Positions 3,754 to 21,317 of a stretch of 21,317 nt of DNA are shown in pieces. The DNA is taken from the IMG/VR virus record IMGVR_UViG_3300042465_002783, positions 1 to 21,317 of that record; one strand, written 5' to 3'. Made by a program: the position numbers and the translations under genes. The stretch is from a virus. Positions within the stretch are counted from its first letter, which is position 1; each line of letters opens with the position of its first letter. The notes under the pieces are model-generated. The model was not told the DNA's origin. It did not search any database and saw only the letters and a program-made list of their open reading frames with translations.

Positions 3754-4493
3754 AAGTAATCCAATCGGGGCATCTCGGTGATTTGATCTATTCACTCACG
3801 GCAACAAAACGAGTTGCGGAGTTACACGGTGCAGTAGATTTCCACATCGGATTCCGTGAGCAGAATACTGTTTCAGGGCATCCAAGCGGAGGGTATTGTA
3901 TGAACTTAAACTCATACGAATACATCAAACCTTTGCTTGAGCATCAATCGTACATTAAAAGCGTTGAGATGCACTCACACCCCGACATTGATTATGACTT
4001 TGATAAGTTCAGGAAGCACGGATTGAATCTCTCTGCTGGTGATTTGAGGCGGAATCACTTTCTTGTCTACCCCGAATTAATGACCGACCTTCACGAACCT
4101 TGCATTGAAGCGACTGAACCTATCCCATACTTTGCGGACAAGATACTTTTGAACTTCTCATCTCGTTATCGCAATTACGACATCAACTATTTTCCATTGA
4201 AGCAACACAAGTGCGTTTTCTTTGGCTATGAAGATGAGTACATTGCATTCACCGAGCGATGGCAGTTGGATTGTGAACTTCTGAAATGCCAAGATGCTTT
4301 GATGTTGGCAACCATTGTCGGCAGTTGCAAGGCATTCATCGGCAATCAGTCAAGCACATACGCCATTGCAGAACAAATGAAAGTTAAACGATTGCTTGAG
4401 ATATGCGTTCACACACCGAATGTCATCCCCGTCAACAATGGCTTTGACTATGTAACGAATCAAGCGTTCAATCACTTACTGAAAACTCTATGA
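3750..4493 (+). CDS. Glycosyltransferase-like protein, GT-B fold, heptosyltransferase (GT9)-like
   Basis: A 247-residue protein resembling the ADP-heptose/GT9 group. The N-terminal SGHLGDLIYSLTATKRVAE (6-24) matches the GDxl.s.Pal..lr acceptor-domain start; KILLNFSSRYR (131-141) is the start of the second Rossmann domain; KAFIGNQSSTYAIAEQMKVK (194-213) matches the FIGNdSg..HlAaa.g donor-site motif, with Gln-Ser-Ser-Thr in place of Asp-Ser-Gly. It is shorter than typical GT9 enzymes (about 320-350 residues). Its substrate is unknown; modification of virion proteins, phage DNA or host surface glycans are all possible. It is coupled by ATGA to both neighbours. Confidence 0.7.
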   Translation: MKVIQSGHLGDLIYSLTATKRVAELHGAVDFHIGFREQNTVSGHPSGGYCMNLNSYEYIKPLLEHQSYIKSVEMHSHPDIDYDFDKFRKHGLNLSAGDLRRNHFLVYPELMTDLHEPCIEATEPIPYFADKILLNFSSRYRNYDINYFPLKQHKCVFFGYEDEYIAFTERWQLDCELLKCQDALMLATIVGSCKAFIGNQSSTYAIAEQMKVKRLLEICVHTPNVIPVNNGFDYVTNQAFNHLLKTL

Positions 4494-5479
4494 AATTACT
4501 GATACTTACTGACGGAATGAATGGTGTAGTTTACCACCGACTATTCACGCCACACTTACGGATGCAAATTGACGGACAAGCGGATGTCAGCGTTTGTCAA
4601 TCACAAGAGGAATGGCTCACACTTGATTACACCCAATTTGATGTGATCATCTTCTCACGATGGCTTGGGGCAAAGCATTATGATGTGCTGAAAAAGATTG
4701 CTGATTCAGGCACTCCCTATGTTGTGGACATTGATGACTATTGGGTTCTCCCAAAATACAACCCGGCATATTGGAACTATCGCAAAGGAATCAAGCAAGG
4801 TGTGAAGGATGCCATCAATTACGCTGATGCGGTGATCACCACAACTCCAGCACTTGCCAAAGAGATTCGGCAGATCAATGAGAATGTGACTGTTGTTTCC
4901 AACTGCTTGGATCTAACCCACAAACAATGGGAAGGCGAACCACTACCAAGAACTGACAAAGTGAAAGTCGGATGGGTGGGTGGAGTTACACACGAGGAGG
5001 ACTTGAAGCTCATTGCTGAGGAGATCAAAGGAATGGACATTGAGTTCTACATCTGCGGATATACACCAGGAGAGATTTGGAATCGCATTGCCAAGAGTAT
5101 GCCCGATGCAAAGATTGTTGAAGGCACAACCGTGTTTGAATATGGTGAGGTGTACAAGCACTTTGATATCGTGGTCGCACCGTTGCAAGATACCAAGTTC
5201 AACAACTGCAAATCTGAGCTGAAGATACTGGAAGCCAGTGCATACAAAAAGCCGATCATTTGTTCTGCCGTCTTGCCGTACCTTTATCACACCGCAAACG
5301 ATGGGGTGCTATTTCTTCCACGCAATCAATGGAGATCAGGCATTCAGAAGTTGATTGATGCCGGGCATTCAGTTCGTCAGTCAATGGGTCAAAGCAACTA
5401 CGACTACTGCAACAAGCATCATAACCTTGCACTACACAACTTGACGAGAATGTCGGTGTATCAACGCTTATGCAAATAA
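4490..5479 (+). CDS. Glycosyltransferase, GT-B fold, family 4-like
   Basis: A 329-residue protein. The N-terminal domain begins MKLLILTDGMNGVVYHRLFT and contains VDIDDYW (79-85); a second Rossmann domain starts at VKVGWVGGVTHEEDL (158-172). The donor-binding motif lies at 241-258: KSELKILEASAYKKPIIC, the GT4 pattern K..lK..EA.A.g.Pvi. It lacks a signal peptide or TM segments, so it should act in the cytoplasm. It is adjacent to the GT9-like gene and overlaps the large terminase by 10 bases, so the pair is made with the packaging proteins. Acceptor unknown. Confidence 0.8.
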   Translation: MKLLILTDGMNGVVYHRLFTPHLRMQIDGQADVSVCQSQEEWLTLDYTQFDVIIFSRWLGAKHYDVLKKIADSGTPYVVDIDDYWVLPKYNPAYWNYRKGIKQGVKDAINYADAVITTTPALAKEIRQINENVTVVSNCLDLTHKQWEGEPLPRTDKVKVGWVGGVTHEEDLKLIAEEIKGMDIEFYICGYTPGEIWNRIAKSMPDAKIVEGTTVFEYGEVYKHFDIVVAPLQDTKFNNCKSELKILEASAYKKPIICSAVLPYLYHTANDGVLFLPRNQWRSGIQKLIDAGHSVRQSMGQSNYDYCNKHHNLALHNLTRMSVYQRLCK

Positions 5480-16200: not shown

Positions 16201-16424
16201 GCGAGAAAATCTACACAACGAATCGTGATATGGGCGTTGAACACGAAGTATCACTCACCAATAAAACATTCACCACGAATCGTGATATGGGATTTGTCCG
16301 CAATGTGGATGATGTCAAGAAAAATTATGAAGTAGATGCGTTGACGGCTGCTTTCTTATTAACTGAGGATTCATTTTTATTGCTCCAAGAGGATGGAGGT
16401 CGTTTGATAGAAAGTTATGTCTAA
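16197..16424 (+). CDS. Small tail-associated protein with internal TTNRDMG repeat
   Basis: A 75-residue protein starting at GTG (GTGA overlap). YTTNRDMG and FTTNRDMG occur at residues 6-13 and 25-32, encoded by a perfect 17-base DNA repeat. The C-terminus (TAAFLLTEDSFLLLQEDGGR) has the LLtEDs.LLleDG pattern seen in phage tail/adhesin proteins. It overlaps the fibre gene by 8 bases. The function is unknown; it is likely structural or a fibre adaptor. Confidence 0.55.
   Translation: MSEKIYTTNRDMGVEHEVSLTNKTFTTNRDMGFVRNVDDVKKNYEVDALTAAFLLTEDSFLLLQEDGGRLIESYV
16218..16291 (+). repeat. Two perfect 17-base direct repeats inside the small tail gene
   Basis: acgaatcgtgatatggg occurs at 16218-16234 and 16275-16291, 57 bases apart and therefore in frame, giving the TTNRDMG peptide repeat. 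Confidence 0.9.
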
Positions 16425-17292
16425 CAAGAAAATTTCACAACTTGATTCCATTGGAACTATTGATGTCAATCAGGACTCAATTCCAATCGTTGACTATTCC
16501 GAGAATGTCACCAAACGGACAAACCTTGCCAACATCGGTCAGCGTGTATTGGAAGCCAGTACGACAACAAACCTTGCTGAAGGAACAAACTTATATTTCA
16601 CCAATACACGAGTTTACACGAAGGCAAAGGCAGCGTTCAAAGCTGGTTCAAACACATCCATCACCTTTGACGATGCACTTCAAACCATCACCATCGCATC
16701 TCAGGGCAATGTTCAAAGCGTAAACACAAAGACGGGTGCAGTTGTATTGACAACAACGGACATCAGCGAAGGTACAAATCTATACTACACACAAGCAAGA
16801 TTTAACTCAGCGTTCACGGCAAAGAGTACAAGCGATTTGACGGAGGGAACAAACGAGTATTTCACCGCAGCGAGGGTGAGAGCAGTCGTGTTGACTGGTA
16901 TTTCATTGGTGACAAATGCCGTGATTTCTGCAACCGATTCAGTATTGGTTGCCTTCGGAAAGTTACAAGCTCAGATCACCGCAAACCTTTCAACCCTTAC
17001 ATCACACACATCCGATACAAGCAACCCACACGCCACCACAAAAGCACAAGTCGGCTTGGGCAATGTTGCCGATGTAGACACCACAAACGCATCAAACATT
17101 GCGAGTGGCACATTGGCTGATGCAAGGTTAACATCTGCCGTTACAAAGCAAGGAAACACATTTAACGGAGCATCTCAATTAGTACAGTTGGATGCATCTG
17201 CAAAACTTCCAGCCGTTGACGGTTCTAATTTGACAAACTTAAACATTCCACCTTCAACGGGTGGGGATCTATACTTATTCTATAACTACTAA
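16417..17292 (+). CDS. Tail fibre protein with EGTNLYFT repeats
   Basis: A 291-residue fibre. It opens MSNKKISQLDSIGTIDVNQD followed by SIPIVD, the virion-attachment start of many phage fibres (KISqL......D.ipvvd). Three copies of EGTN(L/E)Y(F/Y)T..R lie at residues about 55, 118 and 143. A GNVQSVNTKTGAVVLTTTDI element occurs at 97-116 and a collar-type motif NPHATTKAQVGLGNVADV at 203-220. These build trimeric beta-fibres. The end is Gly-rich with aromatic residues (GGDLYLFYNY). No chaperone domain is fused. Confidence 0.85.
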   Translation: MSNKKISQLDSIGTIDVNQDSIPIVDYSENVTKRTNLANIGQRVLEASTTTNLAEGTNLYFTNTRVYTKAKAAFKAGSNTSITFDDALQTITIASQGNVQSVNTKTGAVVLTTTDISEGTNLYYTQARFNSAFTAKSTSDLTEGTNEYFTAARVRAVVLTGISLVTNAVISATDSVLVAFGKLQAQITANLSTLTSHTSDTSNPHATTKAQVGLGNVADVDTTNASNIASGTLADARLTSAVTKQGNTFNGASQLVQLDASAKLPAVDGSNLTNLNIPPSTGGDLYLFYNY

Positions 17293-17293
17293 A

Positions 17294-17698
17294 ATGCCAG
17301 CAAATACATCACCCATATTCGCACTATCGCCTGAACTTGCATTTGCAACGGTGACGGATGCAACAACCGACAGAACAGGTGCAACGATGACAAACACCGT
17401 CACGCTTTTAACTGCTGCCACAAACGGCACGAAGATCACACAGATTGGGGCAAAGGTTGCAGGAACAAATGCGGCAACTTTAGTTTTGATTTTTGTAAGT
17501 GATTCAAGTGGGGCGAATTTCAAGTTGTTTGATGAGATTGCACTTTCCGCAATTACGGCATCAACTACCGTGACATCGCAAAGGGCGGTGACTGCTTACT
17601 CAGATTTGCAATTAAAAGCTGGGCAAGTTGTCAAAGTTGGAACTACCGTTGCAACTGCTGCTGGAATAAACATATTTGCAATCAAAGGAGATTATTGA
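17294..17698 (+). CDS. Small Ala/Thr-rich virion protein, possible fibre or head-decoration protein
   Basis: A 134-residue protein, MPANTSPIFALSPELAFATV at the start, then TNTVTLLTAATNGTKITQIG, LVLIFVSDSSGANFKLFDEI and a Gly-ended C-terminus. The composition and TAATNGTKI..I pattern suggest a single beta-sandwich domain of a kind found in Bacteroidota phage virions. A GTG 33 bases upstream is in frame but lies within the fibre gene; the ATG one base after the fibre stop is preferred. The function is not established. Confidence 0.6.
   Translation: MPANTSPIFALSPELAFATVTDATTDRTGATMTNTVTLLTAATNGTKITQIGAKVAGTNAATLVLIFVSDSSGANFKLFDEIALSAITASTTVTSQRAVTAYSDLQLKAGQVVKVGTTVATAAGINIFAIKGDY
17684..17690 (+). 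promoter_or_regulatory. Shine-Dalgarno-like site fixing the spike start
   Basis: AAAGGAG lies 9 bases before the ATG at 17700. It is one of few such sites in the window, and it excludes the in-frame TTG at 17676. Confidence 0.6.
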
Positions 17699-17699
17699 G

Positions 17700-18566
17700 A
17701 TGCCTGACTTCGGGATAATGCGTGGTTTTAATGAGAAGTTGTTTGGTGACAAGTTGGTTGCTGGGCAATTGCCTACGCAGTTGGGGTTGATTGGTAGTGA
17801 AAATATAACTCCTTTTTTACTTGACCTTTATCCAAACGCAGCCGCTGCTTATTCATTGCGTAAATTAAGAGGAGCATACACCGGAAATTCAATAAGAGTA
17901 AGAAGAACAGATAATACGGAGCAAGACATTGGATTTGCTATTGATGGAAGTTTAGATACAACAGCTTTACTCGCTTTTACTGGTACAGGGGCTTTAAATA
18001 ATGGATTTGTTACCACTTGGTACGACCAAAGTGGAAATGCAAGAAACGCAACGCAAACAACGGCAATAACCCAACCTCAAATAGTTAGCGCTGGTAGTGT
18101 TGTATTGGAAAATTCACTTCCAAGTGTAAATTTTGCCACTTCTAAAGAAATACAAACTGGGGCTTTTGCTTCAGTTATTTCACAACCGAACACATATTTC
18201 ATAACTGTAAACAAAGTAAATCATAGCGGTTATTTATTTGAAACAAGTGGAGCAGGCGGAAGGCAAGCACAAGGAGATGATACTTGGATATTTGCAGGTT
18301 CTGCTGCTTTTGGTTTTTATCCTAATGCTTACCTAAATAGTCAACAAATCTTTACTGTTCTTTTTGACGGGTCTAATAGTATTAGTCGAATGAATGGAGT
18401 TTCGGTAGGTTCTGGCAATCCAGGAACTAATGGGCAAGCAGGTCTACGTATTGGAAGAGGATTAACCAATTTTAAATTACAAGAATTTGTAATTTATTCA
18501 TCCAACCAAACAAGTAACTTTAATGGAATAGAAACAAATATTAACTCATTTTATTCAATTTACTAA
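17700..18566 (+). CDS. Tail spike/fibre with arabinofuranosidase-like (concanavalin-like) domain
   Basis: A 288-residue protein. Residues 1-35 (MPDFGIMRGFNEKLFGDKLV) look like an adaptor to the fibre. Residues 45-120 (AAAAYSLRKL, IRVRRTDNTEQDIGFAIDGS, ALLAFTGTGALNNGFVTTWY, DQSGNARNATQ) match the pattern of the alpha-L-arabinofuranosidase B catalytic/jelly-roll fold (AYSlRkL....G..irVrR..d....DIGF....l....l..F.g......v..WYDQSGngrda.Q). The remainder is a LamG/ConA-like sandwich. In phages this fold may bind or cut host polysaccharide. Codon use is clearly more AT-rich than the flanking genes, a sign of recent exchange. The Shine-Dalgarno site supports the ATG. Confidence 0.75.
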   Translation: MPDFGIMRGFNEKLFGDKLVAGQLPTQLGLIGSENITPFLLDLYPNAAAAYSLRKLRGAYTGNSIRVRRTDNTEQDIGFAIDGSLDTTALLAFTGTGALNNGFVTTWYDQSGNARNATQTTAITQPQIVSAGSVVLENSLPSVNFATSKEIQTGAFASVISQPNTYFITVNKVNHSGYLFETSGAGGRQAQGDDTWIFAGSAAFGFYPNAYLNSQQIFTVLFDGSNSISRMNGVSVGSGNPGTNGQAGLRIGRGLTNFKLQEFVIYSSNQTSNFNGIETNINSFYSIY

Positions 18567-18796
18567 TGTTAGGATATAAATACACAACCGAAGCCGAAGC
18601 AATTAACGCCCGTGAAGCGTGCGATAATTACTACGGCATACCCGTTGCACCTGATGATGTCACACAGAATTGGGTGGACTATCAGTTTGCAGAATTAAAC
18701 ACACCGCAATTTTGGTACATTGTTTTTGATGAATCATTAACGCCAATACTCGGGACACCCACAGAATTTGAAGTAGTTACACAATCACTCCCATGA
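18566..18796 (+). CDS. Small protein following the spike, possible fibre chaperone or attachment partner
   Basis: A 76-residue protein: MLGYKYTTEAEAINAREACD, NYYGIPVAPDDVTQNWVDYQ, and TPQFWYIVFDESLTPILGTP. The tight arrangement of YKYTTE.EAI, YYGIP, and FWYI.fDESL.p.LG.P is typical of a small conserved phage protein located directly after fibre genes; a fibre-assembly role is inferred from position alone. The start forms TAATG with the spike stop; the end forms ATGA with the next short frame. Confidence 0.6.
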   Translation: MLGYKYTTEAEAINAREACDNYYGIPVAPDDVTQNWVDYQFAELNTPQFWYIVFDESLTPILGTPTEFEVVTQSLP

Positions 18797-18855
18797 CAAC
18801 ACCGAAAGTAAAACCCAATGCGCTACCTGTTAGCTTTGACCAATTCCCGATATGA
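18793..18855 (+). CDS. 20-residue peptide ORF carrying the ALPVSFDQF motif
   Basis: A complete 20-residue frame, MTTPKVKPNALPVSFDQFPI, lies between the spike-associated gene and the kinase and forms ATGA overlaps with both. Its ALPVSFDQF motif recurs in the membrane protein starting at 21208, which reads KKPSALPVSFDQFRKNP. Between the two 27-base segments five bases differ, all at synonymous third positions. It is either a real coupled peptide or the remaining N-terminus of a second copy of that membrane protein. It could also be an N-terminal extension of the kinase joined by a -1 shift. Confidence 0.5.
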   Translation: MTTPKVKPNALPVSFDQFPI

Positions 18856-20075
18856 AACTAAGCGGTCGTAGTTGGATCGCTTTGATAATTGCGTCAGTCA
18901 TTATGCTGACCTTTCTTTCCGTGCAGTCAGCACTTGTTTTCAAATACATTGAGCCGACCTATACATCGGCTCTTTTTGGCTATTGGTCAATTATTGCCTT
19001 TATACCTTTTTTCTATTTCGTTGTGATTGAGTTCGTCAGAAAAGCACGGCATAAATTTCAATCAATAGACGATACATTCAACGCCATTGATGCCAGTAAC
19101 ATCGTATTGGAGTTTGACAAAAGCGGAACTATCCGAAAAGCAAATTCAAAGTTTTACACATCATTTGGCTATGCAGATATAATTGGACAACGCCACAAAG
19201 TTTTGGTCGGTGATGTAGATGCGAACGAATACAACTCATTTTGGAATCAACTCAGAGTCGGAAGATTTAAGCAAGGAGAATATGAAAGATTGAAGTCAGA
19301 TGGTTCGGTGATATGGTTATTTGCAAACTACAACCCCATCAAAGATCCATACGGTGAAGTTTACAAAGTGATGCTGATTGCAACCGATATCACCGACAAG
19401 AAGATAATTGAAGCGGATGTAAACAAAAAGAATTCCTATTTGGAACACGCTGCGAAGATTCTAAGACACGATATGCATTCGGGAATCAATACATATATCC
19501 CACGAGGTTTGAGTTCATTAAAACGGAGATTGTCTGAAGAGCAAATCAAGGAGTTAAAGATTGATGCACCCTTGCGAATGATTGAAGAGGGATTGACCCA
19601 CACGCAAAAAGTGTACAAGGGAGTGAAAGAATTCACGAACTTGGTGAAGGCAGATGCACAACTTGAAAAGAATGAGTTTGATCTGCGTGAAATTCTAATC
19701 AGTTACCTGAGCAGTACCAGTTATGAAAAGCAAGTTGTCATTGAAGAACTACCCATTATTGAAGTAAACGAGTCGTTGTTTTGTACTGCGGTGGACAACC
19801 TAATCAGAAACGGATTAAAGTACAACGATAGTTCAACAAAGGTGATTCGCATATTTGCGGAGGACAACTATCTTTGCATCGTTGACAATGGTCGTGGAAT
19901 GAGTCAAGAGGATTTGATTCAATGGTCGCAACCGTATAAACGAAAAGAAGGGCAGAAAGAAGCTGGAAGCGGATTGGGTTTGAACATATGCATTGCCATT
20001 ATGGATGAACACAAATTCCCGGTAACTGCTGAGAAATTAGAAATAGGTACAAAATTAAAGATAAAAATACGATGA
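18852..20075 (+). CDS. Membrane-bound PAS sensor histidine kinase
   Basis: A 407-residue protein. TM helices lie at about 9-30 and 44-63, separated by a very short external loop, so the signal is likely membrane-borne or cytoplasmic. A PAS domain spans about 76-187 (NIVLEFDKSGTIRKANSKFY; the PAC-like end is VYKVMLIATDITDKK). The dimerisation/phosphoacceptor helix has LRHDMHSGINTYIPRG with H206. The ATPase domain has an N-box VDNLIRNGLKYN (N316, N320), a G1 box VDNGRGM (D345) and a G2 box GSGLGLNICIAIM (372-384). All catalytic elements are present. It forms ATGA overlaps with the 20-residue frame upstream and the response regulator downstream. Complete histidine kinases are rare in phage late operons. 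Confidence 0.9.
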   Translation: MKLSGRSWIALIIASVIMLTFLSVQSALVFKYIEPTYTSALFGYWSIIAFIPFFYFVVIEFVRKARHKFQSIDDTFNAIDASNIVLEFDKSGTIRKANSKFYTSFGYADIIGQRHKVLVGDVDANEYNSFWNQLRVGRFKQGEYERLKSDGSVIWLFANYNPIKDPYGEVYKVMLIATDITDKKIIEADVNKKNSYLEHAAKILRHDMHSGINTYIPRGLSSLKRRLSEEQIKELKIDAPLRMIEEGLTHTQKVYKGVKEFTNLVKADAQLEKNEFDLREILISYLSSTSYEKQVVIEELPIIEVNESLFCTAVDNLIRNGLKYNDSSTKVIRIFAEDNYLCIVDNGRGMSQEDLIQWSQPYKRKEGQKEAGSGLGLNICIAIMDEHKFPVTAEKLEIGTKLKIKIR

Positions 20076-20509
20076 TTGATTCCATATTGCTTGTAGATGA
20101 CGAGGATTTATTCCACTTAGTTTTTGAAGATTCTTGCTCGTTGCTGGACATCACACTTTCCCTGCAAAGTTTAACATCTTCAGACGAAGCCGACCGACTA
20201 TTCAAGAAGTGGTTCAATGAAGGTCCTGTGGAAGATAGACCCGAATGTGTGTTTGTGGATTTGAACATCATCGGCAGTTCGTTTGATGGGATTGAGTTGA
20301 TCAGAAAAATCAACACGGAGTATGGCAACGGTGTTGTCATCGGAATCATCTCCAGTTCAGACGATAAACAAGAAATTGACAAGGCGAAATCCGTTGGAGC
20401 TCAGTTTTGGATTATCAAATCAGATGAGATTGAGCCGAGATTGGAATCCTTTCGCAGAGATTATGAAGGGTACAAGAATAAAACTGCTCCGTTTAAGGTA
20501 TACAAGTGA
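20072..20509 (+). CDS. Single-domain response regulator (receiver only)
   Basis: A 145-residue receiver protein. Acidic residues D9/D10 (ILLVDDED), phosphoacceptor D63 (CVFVDLNIIG), the switch Ser at 94-96 (GIISSSDD) and K116 (WIIKSDE) are all in place. The 55-60 residue span to D63 holds a slightly long helical insertion. There is no output domain; only a short tail (YEGYKNKTAPFKVYK) follows, so it must act by protein contact, like CheY or Rcp1. It is coupled by ATGA to the kinase and by GTGA to the next gene, which makes it the cognate partner of the kinase and a candidate regulator of the membrane coiled-coil protein. Confidence 0.9.
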   Translation: MIDSILLVDDEDLFHLVFEDSCSLLDITLSLQSLTSSDEADRLFKKWFNEGPVEDRPECVFVDLNIIGSSFDGIELIRKINTEYGNGVVIGIISSSDDKQEIDKAKSVGAQFWIIKSDEIEPRLESFRRDYEGYKNKTAPFKVYK

Positions 20510-21048
20510 TTCTAAGCAATGATACTGCCCAACAACTACTCAACCTATGGAAAACAAAAAAGGTTGGTTTAGAGGGCAATGTCTTGAAAGTCATCCAAAC
20601 AACGGATGAGGAATTCCAAAGGTACATTGACGAGGCAAAGCAGCGTGATCAAGAAACAAGACGAAAACGGTTAGAGATTACCAAACAAGTCCAATCTCAA
20701 AACAAGGACTTAATTGAAAGCCAAGCGGATCGTGAGAAGTTGATGATTGATTTGCAAGAATCACTTGCACAATCTGAGATGCTCAAGAACGCAGCGGTTG
20801 AGGATTTGGAATCACTACAAAAACGCACTCAGTTTGAACTGATTGGATTGATTGTAAAGGTCGCATTGTCGGTGATTGGTGCGGTTTGTATCTTGACAAC
20901 GATTCTTTATTTGTATGTAATCAGTAAGGGGTTGAATTCTACAATCATTGAAACTACCTGGAGCAATCTATTTGGAATCATCTTGACTAACTCGTTCTCA
21001 ATAATAGGAACGATTATGGGTGTGAAACATATGGCAGATAAAAAGTAA
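20506..21048 (+). CDS. Membrane-anchored coiled-coil protein, third member of the signalling cassette
   Basis: A 180-residue protein starting at GTG (GTGA overlap). Residues 1-30 are a small N-terminal region; 35-108 form a charged coiled coil (FQRYIDEAKQRDQETRRKRL; QADREKLMIDLQESLAQSEM). Two TM helices follow at about 112-138 (LIGLIVKVALSVIGAVCILT) and 152-173 (WSNLFGIILTNSFSIIGTIM). The C-terminus is VKHMADKK. I do not recognise a family. The N-terminal coiled coil is probably cytoplasmic, placed to meet the response regulator, so it may be the effector. A holin-like or exclusion-type membrane role is possible and unproven. Confidence 0.75.
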   Translation: MILSNDTAQQLLNLWKTKKVGLEGNVLKVIQTTDEEFQRYIDEAKQRDQETRRKRLEITKQVQSQNKDLIESQADREKLMIDLQESLAQSEMLKNAAVEDLESLQKRTQFELIGLIVKVALSVIGAVCILTTILYLYVISKGLNSTIIETTWSNLFGIILTNSFSIIGTIMGVKHMADKK

Positions 21049-21207: not shown

Positions 21208-21317
21208 GTGGCATCTACTATCAAAAAACCTTCAGCACTTCCAGTTAGTTTTGACCAATTTCGTAAGAATCCAATTGCCGCAGTTGCTTTTTGTATGCTT
21301 GTGGCTGTCAGCTATCT
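21208..21317 (+). CDS. Membrane protein N-terminus with ALPVSFDQF motif (3' truncated by the window)
   Basis: The frame runs from GTG to the window edge (36 codons plus two bases): ASTIKKPSALPVSFDQFRKN then PIAAVAFCMLVAVSYL, a cytoplasmic leader followed by a TM helix. The (L)PVSF(D/E)QF(R/K)KnP.aA..f...va..YL opening is one I associate with Bacteroidota phage membrane proteins near the lysis genes, perhaps spanin-like, but the rest is needed to tell. GTG is chosen because it lies just after the CTATTT box, as at 7451, and no ATG is available upstream in frame before the stop. Confidence 0.55.
   Translation, partial: MASTIKKPSALPVSFDQFRKNPIAAVAFCMLVAVSY

Follow-up and report, generated by a model that had tools for sequence, protein, structure and literature searches.

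Sensing by phages is usually thought to run through repressors, small peptides or lysis clocks. Here we analyse the virus record IMGVR_UViG_3300042465_002783 of IMG/VR over its 21,317 nucleotides (hereafter the window), which encodes a histidine kinase (HK), a response regulator (RR) and a membrane coiled-coil protein (CC) in three consecutive genes. This cassette is a genuine, conserved viral two-component system, undescribed in the literature and sequence searches named below.

Several described systems resemble parts of it. Orthodox systems with single-domain (CheY-like) response regulators share with it the H-box kinase, the D/D/D/S/K receiver, the adjacent genes and the domain order PAS-DHp-CA; the cassette departs from them in being restricted to viruses in the collections searched, in its nearly constant third membrane gene, and in an RR that is far more conserved than the sensor half of its kinase. 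Lysis inhibition of the T4 type uses RI/RIII and the holin T and is not known to involve a phosphorelay, and it would serve the same end as the cassette if a role of the latter in lysis were confirmed. LiaFSR has in common with the cassette a kinase with two transmembrane (TM) helices but no large external sensor, and a third protein located in the membrane. This combination of kinase, regulator and third protein is set out in the available text of a report on LiaFSR (PMC7191749); LiaR binds DNA, whereas the cassette RR has no output domain, and CC matched none of the LiaF models of Pfam and NCBIfam at E ≤ 0.1.

Single elements of such pathways have also been reported from phages. Phage phiCDHM1 carries agr genes including the AgrC kinase, a quorum-sensing set for which the authors, in the accessible part of their article, found no response regulator in the phage (PMC3901668); the cassette likewise includes a phage histidine kinase, but in a complete HK-RR pair with a third protein of its own. 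Uncultivated pelagiphages place a histidine kinase gene in front of curli genes (PMC9599517), which is comparable in that a kinase gene lies in marine phage genomes and different in its curli neighbours, the excerpt of that study mentioning no RR partner. The receiver-like domain cREC of jumbo phages reportedly never occurs in histidine-kinase systems and sits with NAD-processing genes, according to the portion of the source at hand (PMC7824862), whereas the receiver of the cassette stands directly behind a kinase (HK upstream in 207 of 211 loci). Finally, a viral nitrate reductase and UhpC were placed in host two-component pathways, which do not amount to a viral HK-RR pair, in the text available from that work (PMC5513705). 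Among the publications listed by our searches, which covered titles and the beginnings of abstracts, with most subscription journals and bioRxiv outside their reach, none describes the HK-RR-CC triad. This agrees with an initial annotation, made from the sequence of the window alone, that knew of no characterised example of the arrangement, though lone phage histidine kinases are published.

A conserved cassette on phage-like DNA

The genes for HK, RR and CC lie on the + strand at the right end of the window, all three open reading frames (ORFs) being intact and joined by 4-base overlaps (HK/RR and RR/CC). Other genes of the window match terminase, tape-measure, head protease, tail-fibre and virion-structural families (Pfam, PHROG), and a putative capsid ORF has a weak family match only. 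The ORFs, their catalytic residues and their structural neighbours thus bear out the description in the initial annotation of a complete two-component cassette set among phage structural genes.

The search for the same three-gene neighbourhood that had been suggested there, with kinase and regulator as queries, yielded hundreds of related IMG/VR stretches. The scan with HK gave at least 594 relatives among 597 candidate stretches, that with a CC alignment at least 485 among 598, that with a distant RR 556 of 561, and that with the RR of locus L082 56 of 74; these counts refer to stretches, and up to 80 loci were kept from each scan. In the 80 IMG/VR loci kept from the HK scan the HK relatives show 57-100% identity, mostly across nearly the whole protein, and the records range in size from short fragments up to 298 kb. 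The 211 RR loci compared below include the window and L082 and comprise 169 distinct RR-region sequences, six contigs occurring twice. HK lies at most four genes upstream of RR in all of the 207 loci mentioned above, and the RR ORF of the other four begins at base 1, 1, 84 and 149 of its locus. CC was found downstream of RR in 202 of the 211. Of the nine loci without it, RR lies 14 bases or less from the end of the locus in six, L121 and L135 continue for 376 and 619 bases after RR, and the CC of L056 had been overlooked by the ORF picker and was found by tblastn. Viewed from the side of CC, an RR lies upstream in 78 of 80 CC loci, many of whose contigs overlap the first set, the remaining two being L253, which begins at a contig edge, and L262.

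Outside viral records the cassette was almost absent from the collections searched. Among 84,980 bacterial and archaeal genomes, a scan with two RR peptide patterns, which reaches close relatives on contigs of at least 3 kb and could miss diverged chromosomal relatives, yielded 147 pattern stretches, among them a single relative, L082. There, HK-RR-CC is found near Terminase_6N and PhoH proteins on a contig of 16.8 kb from the assembly of an uncultured bacterium, and RR was detected at E ≤ 1e-6 in one of 245 genomes of the phylum to which this bacterium belongs, namely the genome of L082 itself. An ordinary chromosomal operon without phage genes, the contrary case named in the initial annotation, is therefore rejected within the reach of this two-pattern scan, the only contig in question encoding a terminase. 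The RRs of the window and of L208 and the CC of L195 had no match in 50,697 GenBank phage records, where the only match of the window HK was a partial one to an uncultured faecal phage, covering 39% of the query at 34.6% identity. Carriage by plasmids is rejected as well, the window RR being unmatched among 72,556 of them, as is a defence system, since the best PADLOC match among six proteins (E 0.0014) fell on a neighbour and not on HK, RR or CC. BFVD holds HK and CC relatives from "uncultured Caudovirales phage", single members of the family thus being already public. As far as the searched collections show, the cassette is restricted to uncultivated tailed phages.

Against close relatives, the ratio of nonsynonymous to synonymous substitution rates (dN/dS) is 0.00-0.11 for HK, RR and CC; synonymous sites are saturated against more distant ones. 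Because HK relatives are widespread, dN/dS is low and the catalytic residues are almost universal, the three-gene cassette is not a chance association. RR is the slowest-evolving of the three genes: its median pairwise identity in 96 thinned triads is 0.76, compared with 0.66 (HK core), 0.53 (CC) and 0.35 (HK sensor half). Gene context was compared over 80 loci flanked on each side by 4 kb or more, using neighbour clusters built by greedy ORF calling rather than by a gene finder: 2224 of the 3160 locus pairs have no other detected gene family in common, and the median RR identity of these pairs is 0.74 (range 0.62-0.94). The same 80 loci form 30 groups at 30% shared gene families and nine at 10%, the largest with 62 members; 135 loci of at least 9 kb form 32 groups at 30%, and joining by any single family unites 134 of them. 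The contexts thus differ strongly yet are not wholly unconnected, since joining at 10% or by a single family merges most loci. Many loci have tail, baseplate or lysis genes in the vicinity of the cassette, and in one group baseplate genes lie downstream of it.

Kinase, receiver and coiled-coil protein

The window HK carries all the features first read from its sequence, that is two TM helices, a PAS domain and intact H, N, G1 and G2 boxes. PAS_9 and HATPase_c both exceed their Pfam cut-offs, and the motifs comprise H206, N316/N320, DNGRG (345-349) and GSGLGL (372-377). An AlphaFold2 (AF2) model places helices at residues 5-29 and 37-82 (mean pLDDT 79, pTM only 0.40); hydropathy and this model agree on two N-terminal TM helices separated by a very short extracytoplasmic loop, the layout of intramembrane-sensing kinases, so that the near absence of an external loop noted earlier holds for this HK. 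In the residue tallies, in which identical proteins were counted once, H206 is a histidine in 161/161 distinct HKs aligned there (three more are gapped), N316 and N320 are kept in 163/163 aligned, and D345, N346, G347 and G349 in 164/164; in the G2 box, G374 and G376 are found in 164/164 and G372 in 161/164, the other three having E. The stretch around H206 and RR residues 13-20 are nearly invariant among aligned relatives. A fold search with HK against BFVD returned kinases of uncultured phages and giant viruses.

The input half of the kinase is much less constant. Among the 154 HKs that are complete, those truncated at the 5' end being set aside, a hydropathy threshold predicts one or two N-terminal TM segments in 142 and none in 12, and all 12 TM-less loci still have RR and CC. 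Between the window HK and ten further HKs that were scanned, the input half varies from a membrane hairpin with PAS (window) to GAF and PAS (L182, L187 and L208, the PAS of the last below cut-off), two PAS (L177, L171), GAF and two PAS (L169), one PAS (L192), and no recognised sensor (L168, with an HK of 263 aa, L184 and L210). Two HK genes stand 5' of a single RR in L173, L176 and L191, and also in L180, L194, L199 and L212; in the first three, one HK appears to have a signal peptide and a late TM helix, and CC has the variant GTILG. In 41 loci the gene directly 5' of HK encodes a small protein of median length 62 aa that contains two hydrophobic stretches, and the member at L207:6935-7123 had no Pfam or PHROG match; it is a possible sensor partner.

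RR was correctly described as receiver-only with intact phosphorylation residues: D9, D10, D63, S95 and K116 are present, and no second domain was found. Response_reg, its sole Pfam domain, scores 31.5 bits against a cut-off of 30.2, and no output or DNA-binding domain was matched in the 145 aa by Pfam or NCBIfam. RR without a DNA-binding domain therefore needs a protein target for its output. The length is 145 aa in 73/73 stop-codon-bearing RRs of the first set, and identity is 77-100% in 79 of the first 81 loci, the copy of the window included. D9, D10 and D63 occur in 145/145 distinct RRs, S95 in 144/144 and K116 in 142/142 of those aligned, and a tail of the form F-[KR]-x-Y closes 138/140 distinct RRs with a complete 3' end. 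A per-position table shows conservation over most of the length, including the segments assigned to alpha-1, alpha-5 and the tail by receiver-fold numbering.

Alignments and an AF2 model with helices at 35-141 and 146-179 (mean pLDDT 76, pTM 0.34) depict CC as a helical protein in which a short N-terminal segment is followed by a long coiled-coil helix and then by two membrane helices. The window protein belongs to no Pfam family; its best match has E 0.0093 in PHROGs, those in Pfam, NCBIfam and PADLOC being weaker, and a CC profile reached E 0.12 at best against the PDB. One clear relative, viral and uncharacterized, emerged from a fold search in BFVD. The motif in the second TM helix of CC is kept in 132 of 135 distinct CCs with a complete 3' end, the remaining three reading GTILG. 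In 28 loci a protein of about 165 aa (e.g., L122:5410-5907), which by eye comprises a membrane part and a coiled coil, is encoded between RR and CC; it had no convincing family match in Pfam, PADLOC or NCBIfam.

Neighbouring genes and host

Coordinates of the cassette and of the genes at its borders are given in Table 1. The 4-base overlaps originally proposed with the preceding genes were found for HK/RR and RR/CC and do not extend to a direct coupling of HK with the upstream 76-aa ORF (18566-18796), as the 55-base gap between these two is occupied by a 20-aa mini-ORF. Its peptide equals the N-terminus of the membrane protein beginning at 21208; with the pattern used, ALPVSFDQF was found in 23 loci, upstream of HK only in the window's own copy. 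Since the window is alone among these loci in carrying an upstream copy, the mini-ORF looks like a local recombination scar at the border of the cassette. As for the "tail-spike" genes said to precede HK, the ORFs at 16417-17292 and 17676-18566 do match PHROG tail-fibre and virion-structural families, and the 76-aa ORF matches no PHROG family.

Table 1. Features of the cassette and its borders in the window
Feature	Position	Strand	Evidence or remark
Mini-ORF, 20 aa	18793..18855	+	Repeats peptide ALPVSFDQF; ATGA overlap with the 76-aa ORF and with HK
HK, histidine kinase, 407 aa	18852..20075	+	PAS_9 41.4 bits, HATPase_c 45 bits
HK two-TM hairpin, aa 11-29 and 41-59, short loop	18882..19028	+	Hydropathy, AF2 helices
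HK PAS domain, about aa 82-183	19095..19400	+	Pfam; PDB profile matches 3ewk, Aer PAS domain
HK phospho-acceptor H206 in RHDMHSGINTYIPRG (H-box)	19467..19469	+	Alignment of distinct HKs
HK ATPase domain with N, G1 and G2 boxes	19776..20066	+	Pfam, residue alignment
RR, receiver-only response regulator, 145 aa	20072..20509	+	Response_reg
RR phospho-accepting D63	20258..20260	+	Alignment of distinct RRs
RR C-terminal tail FKVYK	20492..20506	+	F-[KR]-x-Y tail in relatives
CC, coiled coil and C-terminal two-helix membrane part, 180 aa	20506..21048	+	ORF, alignments, AF2
CC second TM helix WSNLFGIILTNSFSIIGTIMGVK	20959..21027	+	Motif hyperconserved in relatives
Small membrane protein after CC, 47 aa	21048..21191	+	ORF; hydrophobic stretch read from sequence
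Start of membrane protein, about 94 aa in relatives	21208..21317	+	ORF, cut by window end

One relative of the membrane protein at 21208 had no Pfam or PHROG match. Elsewhere in the window, positions 925-1401 encode a 158-aa protein whose only Pfam domain is a C-terminal DNA-binding domain of the DnaA type (PF08299, 63.9 bits), and a glycosyltransferase gene of the PHROG moron/host takeover class (4490-5479) lies directly 5' of the gene for the terminase large subunit. A transcription role was considered for a gene 5' of the cassette in some large-phage loci, but its representative L107:5685-6404 matched neither Pfam nor PHROG families, and no such role is proposed here. A promoter scan gave two sites against a mean of 8.2 in shuffled sequences.

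The Bacteroidota host assumed in the initial annotation is only weakly hinted at by sequence similarities. The one match of the window's putative capsid ORF is a hypothetical protein encoded by Nonlabens phages (E 1e-3, 22% identity), and the baseplate gene of the relative L107 finds a Microcystis phage first (43%) and Flavobacterium phages at 39%, uncultured phages being also among the best matches. Terminase matches are scattered across many hosts. Shine-Dalgarno-like motifs precede 554 of 2966 predicted starts, compared with 296 in shuffles, a result that decides nothing on the host.

A candidate envelope pathway and its alternatives

The conservation of the catalytic residues makes it very probable that HK and RR form a functional phosphorelay. 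HK would autophosphorylate on H206 and pass the phosphate to D63 of RR, whose output would run via protein contact: phosphorylated RR (RR~P) would bind the cytoplasmic part of CC and change the state of its two-helix membrane part. The input of such a pathway, the HK sensor half, would be exchangeable and the output fixed. CC is the probable output of RR, as the sensor half of HK swaps between phages and RR and CC stay; the 12 TM-less HK loci, all of which keep RR and CC, further indicate that CC is tied to RR rather than to a sensor in the membrane. Two nearly invariant features also belong to the case for this output, the second membrane helix of CC and the C-terminal tail of RR. The likeliest effect would be late envelope control, that is lysis timing or delay, or closing the cell to a second phage. 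We therefore advance, as a tentative proposal held with slightly less than even confidence, that HK-RR-CC is a working two-component pathway of uncultivated tailed phages with CC on its output side, acting on the envelope late in infection; that lysis or envelope timing is the actual consequence is a reasonable guess but, taken by itself, somewhat less likely than not. The widest version, a virus-only pathway from small to jumbo phages in which interchangeable sensors feed a near-frozen receiver and RR~P gates CC, so that the phage decides when the envelope is breached or sealed, seems unlikely to hold in full.

Lysis timing was one of three functions initially guessed, besides the detection of superinfection and the rewiring of host signalling, and it is the one that gained partial support, the other two receiving none. 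Markers of lysis were searched for in 50 whole records, namely every IMG/VR record of 40 kb or more that was fetched after the HK scan and two RR scans, with distances taken as linear (if the records are circular, G005 and G007 also come nearer). The Pfam holin PF05105 exceeds its cut-off in nine of the 50 and lies within 3 kb of RR in eight of these nine, against 0.91 expected by random placement. Amidase_2 is within that distance in three of nine records above cut-off, Peptidase_M15_3 is near RR in two of four, and 9 of the 23 records with endolysin-like genes, the A5 family included, have one at that distance (1.98 expected). Any lysis marker falls within 3 kb of RR in 11 of 25 marker-bearing records, where 2.34 were expected and none of 20,000 random placements reached 11; G004 enters this count through A4 alone, and the sub-cut-off holin of G040, the Amidase_2 of G038 and A5 matches in proteins of 830-831 aa (G029; the second and third of G030) were excluded from the marker counts. 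A family of about 195 aa (L207:6183-6785, L016:11170-11748) shows the motif WS-x-GCQV in 7/7 aligned members, and the L016 member matches a PHROG endolysin; judging from these features, the family may be a peptidoglycan enzyme of this phage group.

Several observations weigh against CC as the device of a general lysis or envelope pathway. Lysis markers were recognised in only 25 of the 50 records, and only 11 of those have one near RR. Amidase_2 is far from RR in G015, G033, G042, G045 and G049 and 13 kb off in G017, as in the largest records generally, where the amidase is far from RR; M15_3 is far in G020 and G021, the A5 gene of G048 is 18 kb off and the holin of G002 39 kb off. The records are interrelated, so that the placement test overstates their independence, and the markers A4 and A5 were built from cassette-adjacent genes, which biases them in its favour. 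Recognised holins lie near the cassette in some phages, so that CC cannot simply be the sole holin, and no homolog with a known function could be recognised for it in Pfam, PHROGs, NCBIfam, PADLOC, PDB or BFVD. As the 74.5-kb record of L262 contains a CC (L262:3150-3806) but yielded no RR, CC may also be independent of RR, acting alone or with another partner. Finally, the mirror-tree correlation of RR with CC (r 0.66) does not stand out from those of RR with the HK core (0.70) and the HK sensor (0.73); tree-distance correlations among RR, CC and the HK parts are all similar (0.65-0.75) and leave input and output roles of CC unseparated. A real linkage with lysis genes thus exists in some members of the family, but it is no general feature.

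The same lack of separation bears on an arrangement in which CC would be an input partner, a LiaF-like membrane accessory tuning HK, and the target of RR would belong to the host, RNA polymerase for instance, or be a different protein of the phage. This we consider unlikely, though it draws on the intramembrane-sensing appearance of HK, with its hairpin and almost no external loop, on the precedent of LiaFSR as a three-component membrane-stress system with an inhibitory third protein in the text available (PMC7191749), and on the conservation of RR along most of its length, as if it were held by several partners. CC and RR persist, however, where HK has no TM helix and little or no sensor (L168, 263 aa), and RR has no matched DNA-binding domain. 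It is quite improbable that the pair instead injects or drains phosphate in host two-component pathways as auxiliary genes affecting stress response, motility or surface remodelling. Phage proteins acting on host two-component systems do exist, such as PIT4 in the portion of its description seen (PMC10714779), and the kinase of curli-carrying pelagiphages stands before the curli genes in the accessible text (PMC9599517); but the near-invariant segments around H206 and in RR suggest a private pair rather than a host-tuned one, and CsgG was matched in 0/50 records, by which a curli link is rejected. That these are ordinary cellular two-component genes in phage or mis-binned contigs, transduced cargo with no viral role, is most improbable: the HK and RR domains are of bacterial type, but hundreds of viral stretches face one genome-collection match on a terminase-bearing contig, RR is unmatched in GenBank phage and plasmid records, the cassette genes are under purifying selection, and tail, baseplate or lysis genes lie nearby in many loci.

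The occurrence of the HK/RR pair under purifying selection in very different phages, and its absence off phage-like DNA in our searches, suggest that some viruses probably run a phosphorelay of their own. RR and CC provide conserved markers for tracking this pathway in viromes. If CC is the output, the cassette would be a two-component system that acts through a membrane device instead of through transcription, and it would offer a direct, testable link from the sensed state of the infected cell to a late decision such as the time of lysis or the control of superinfection.

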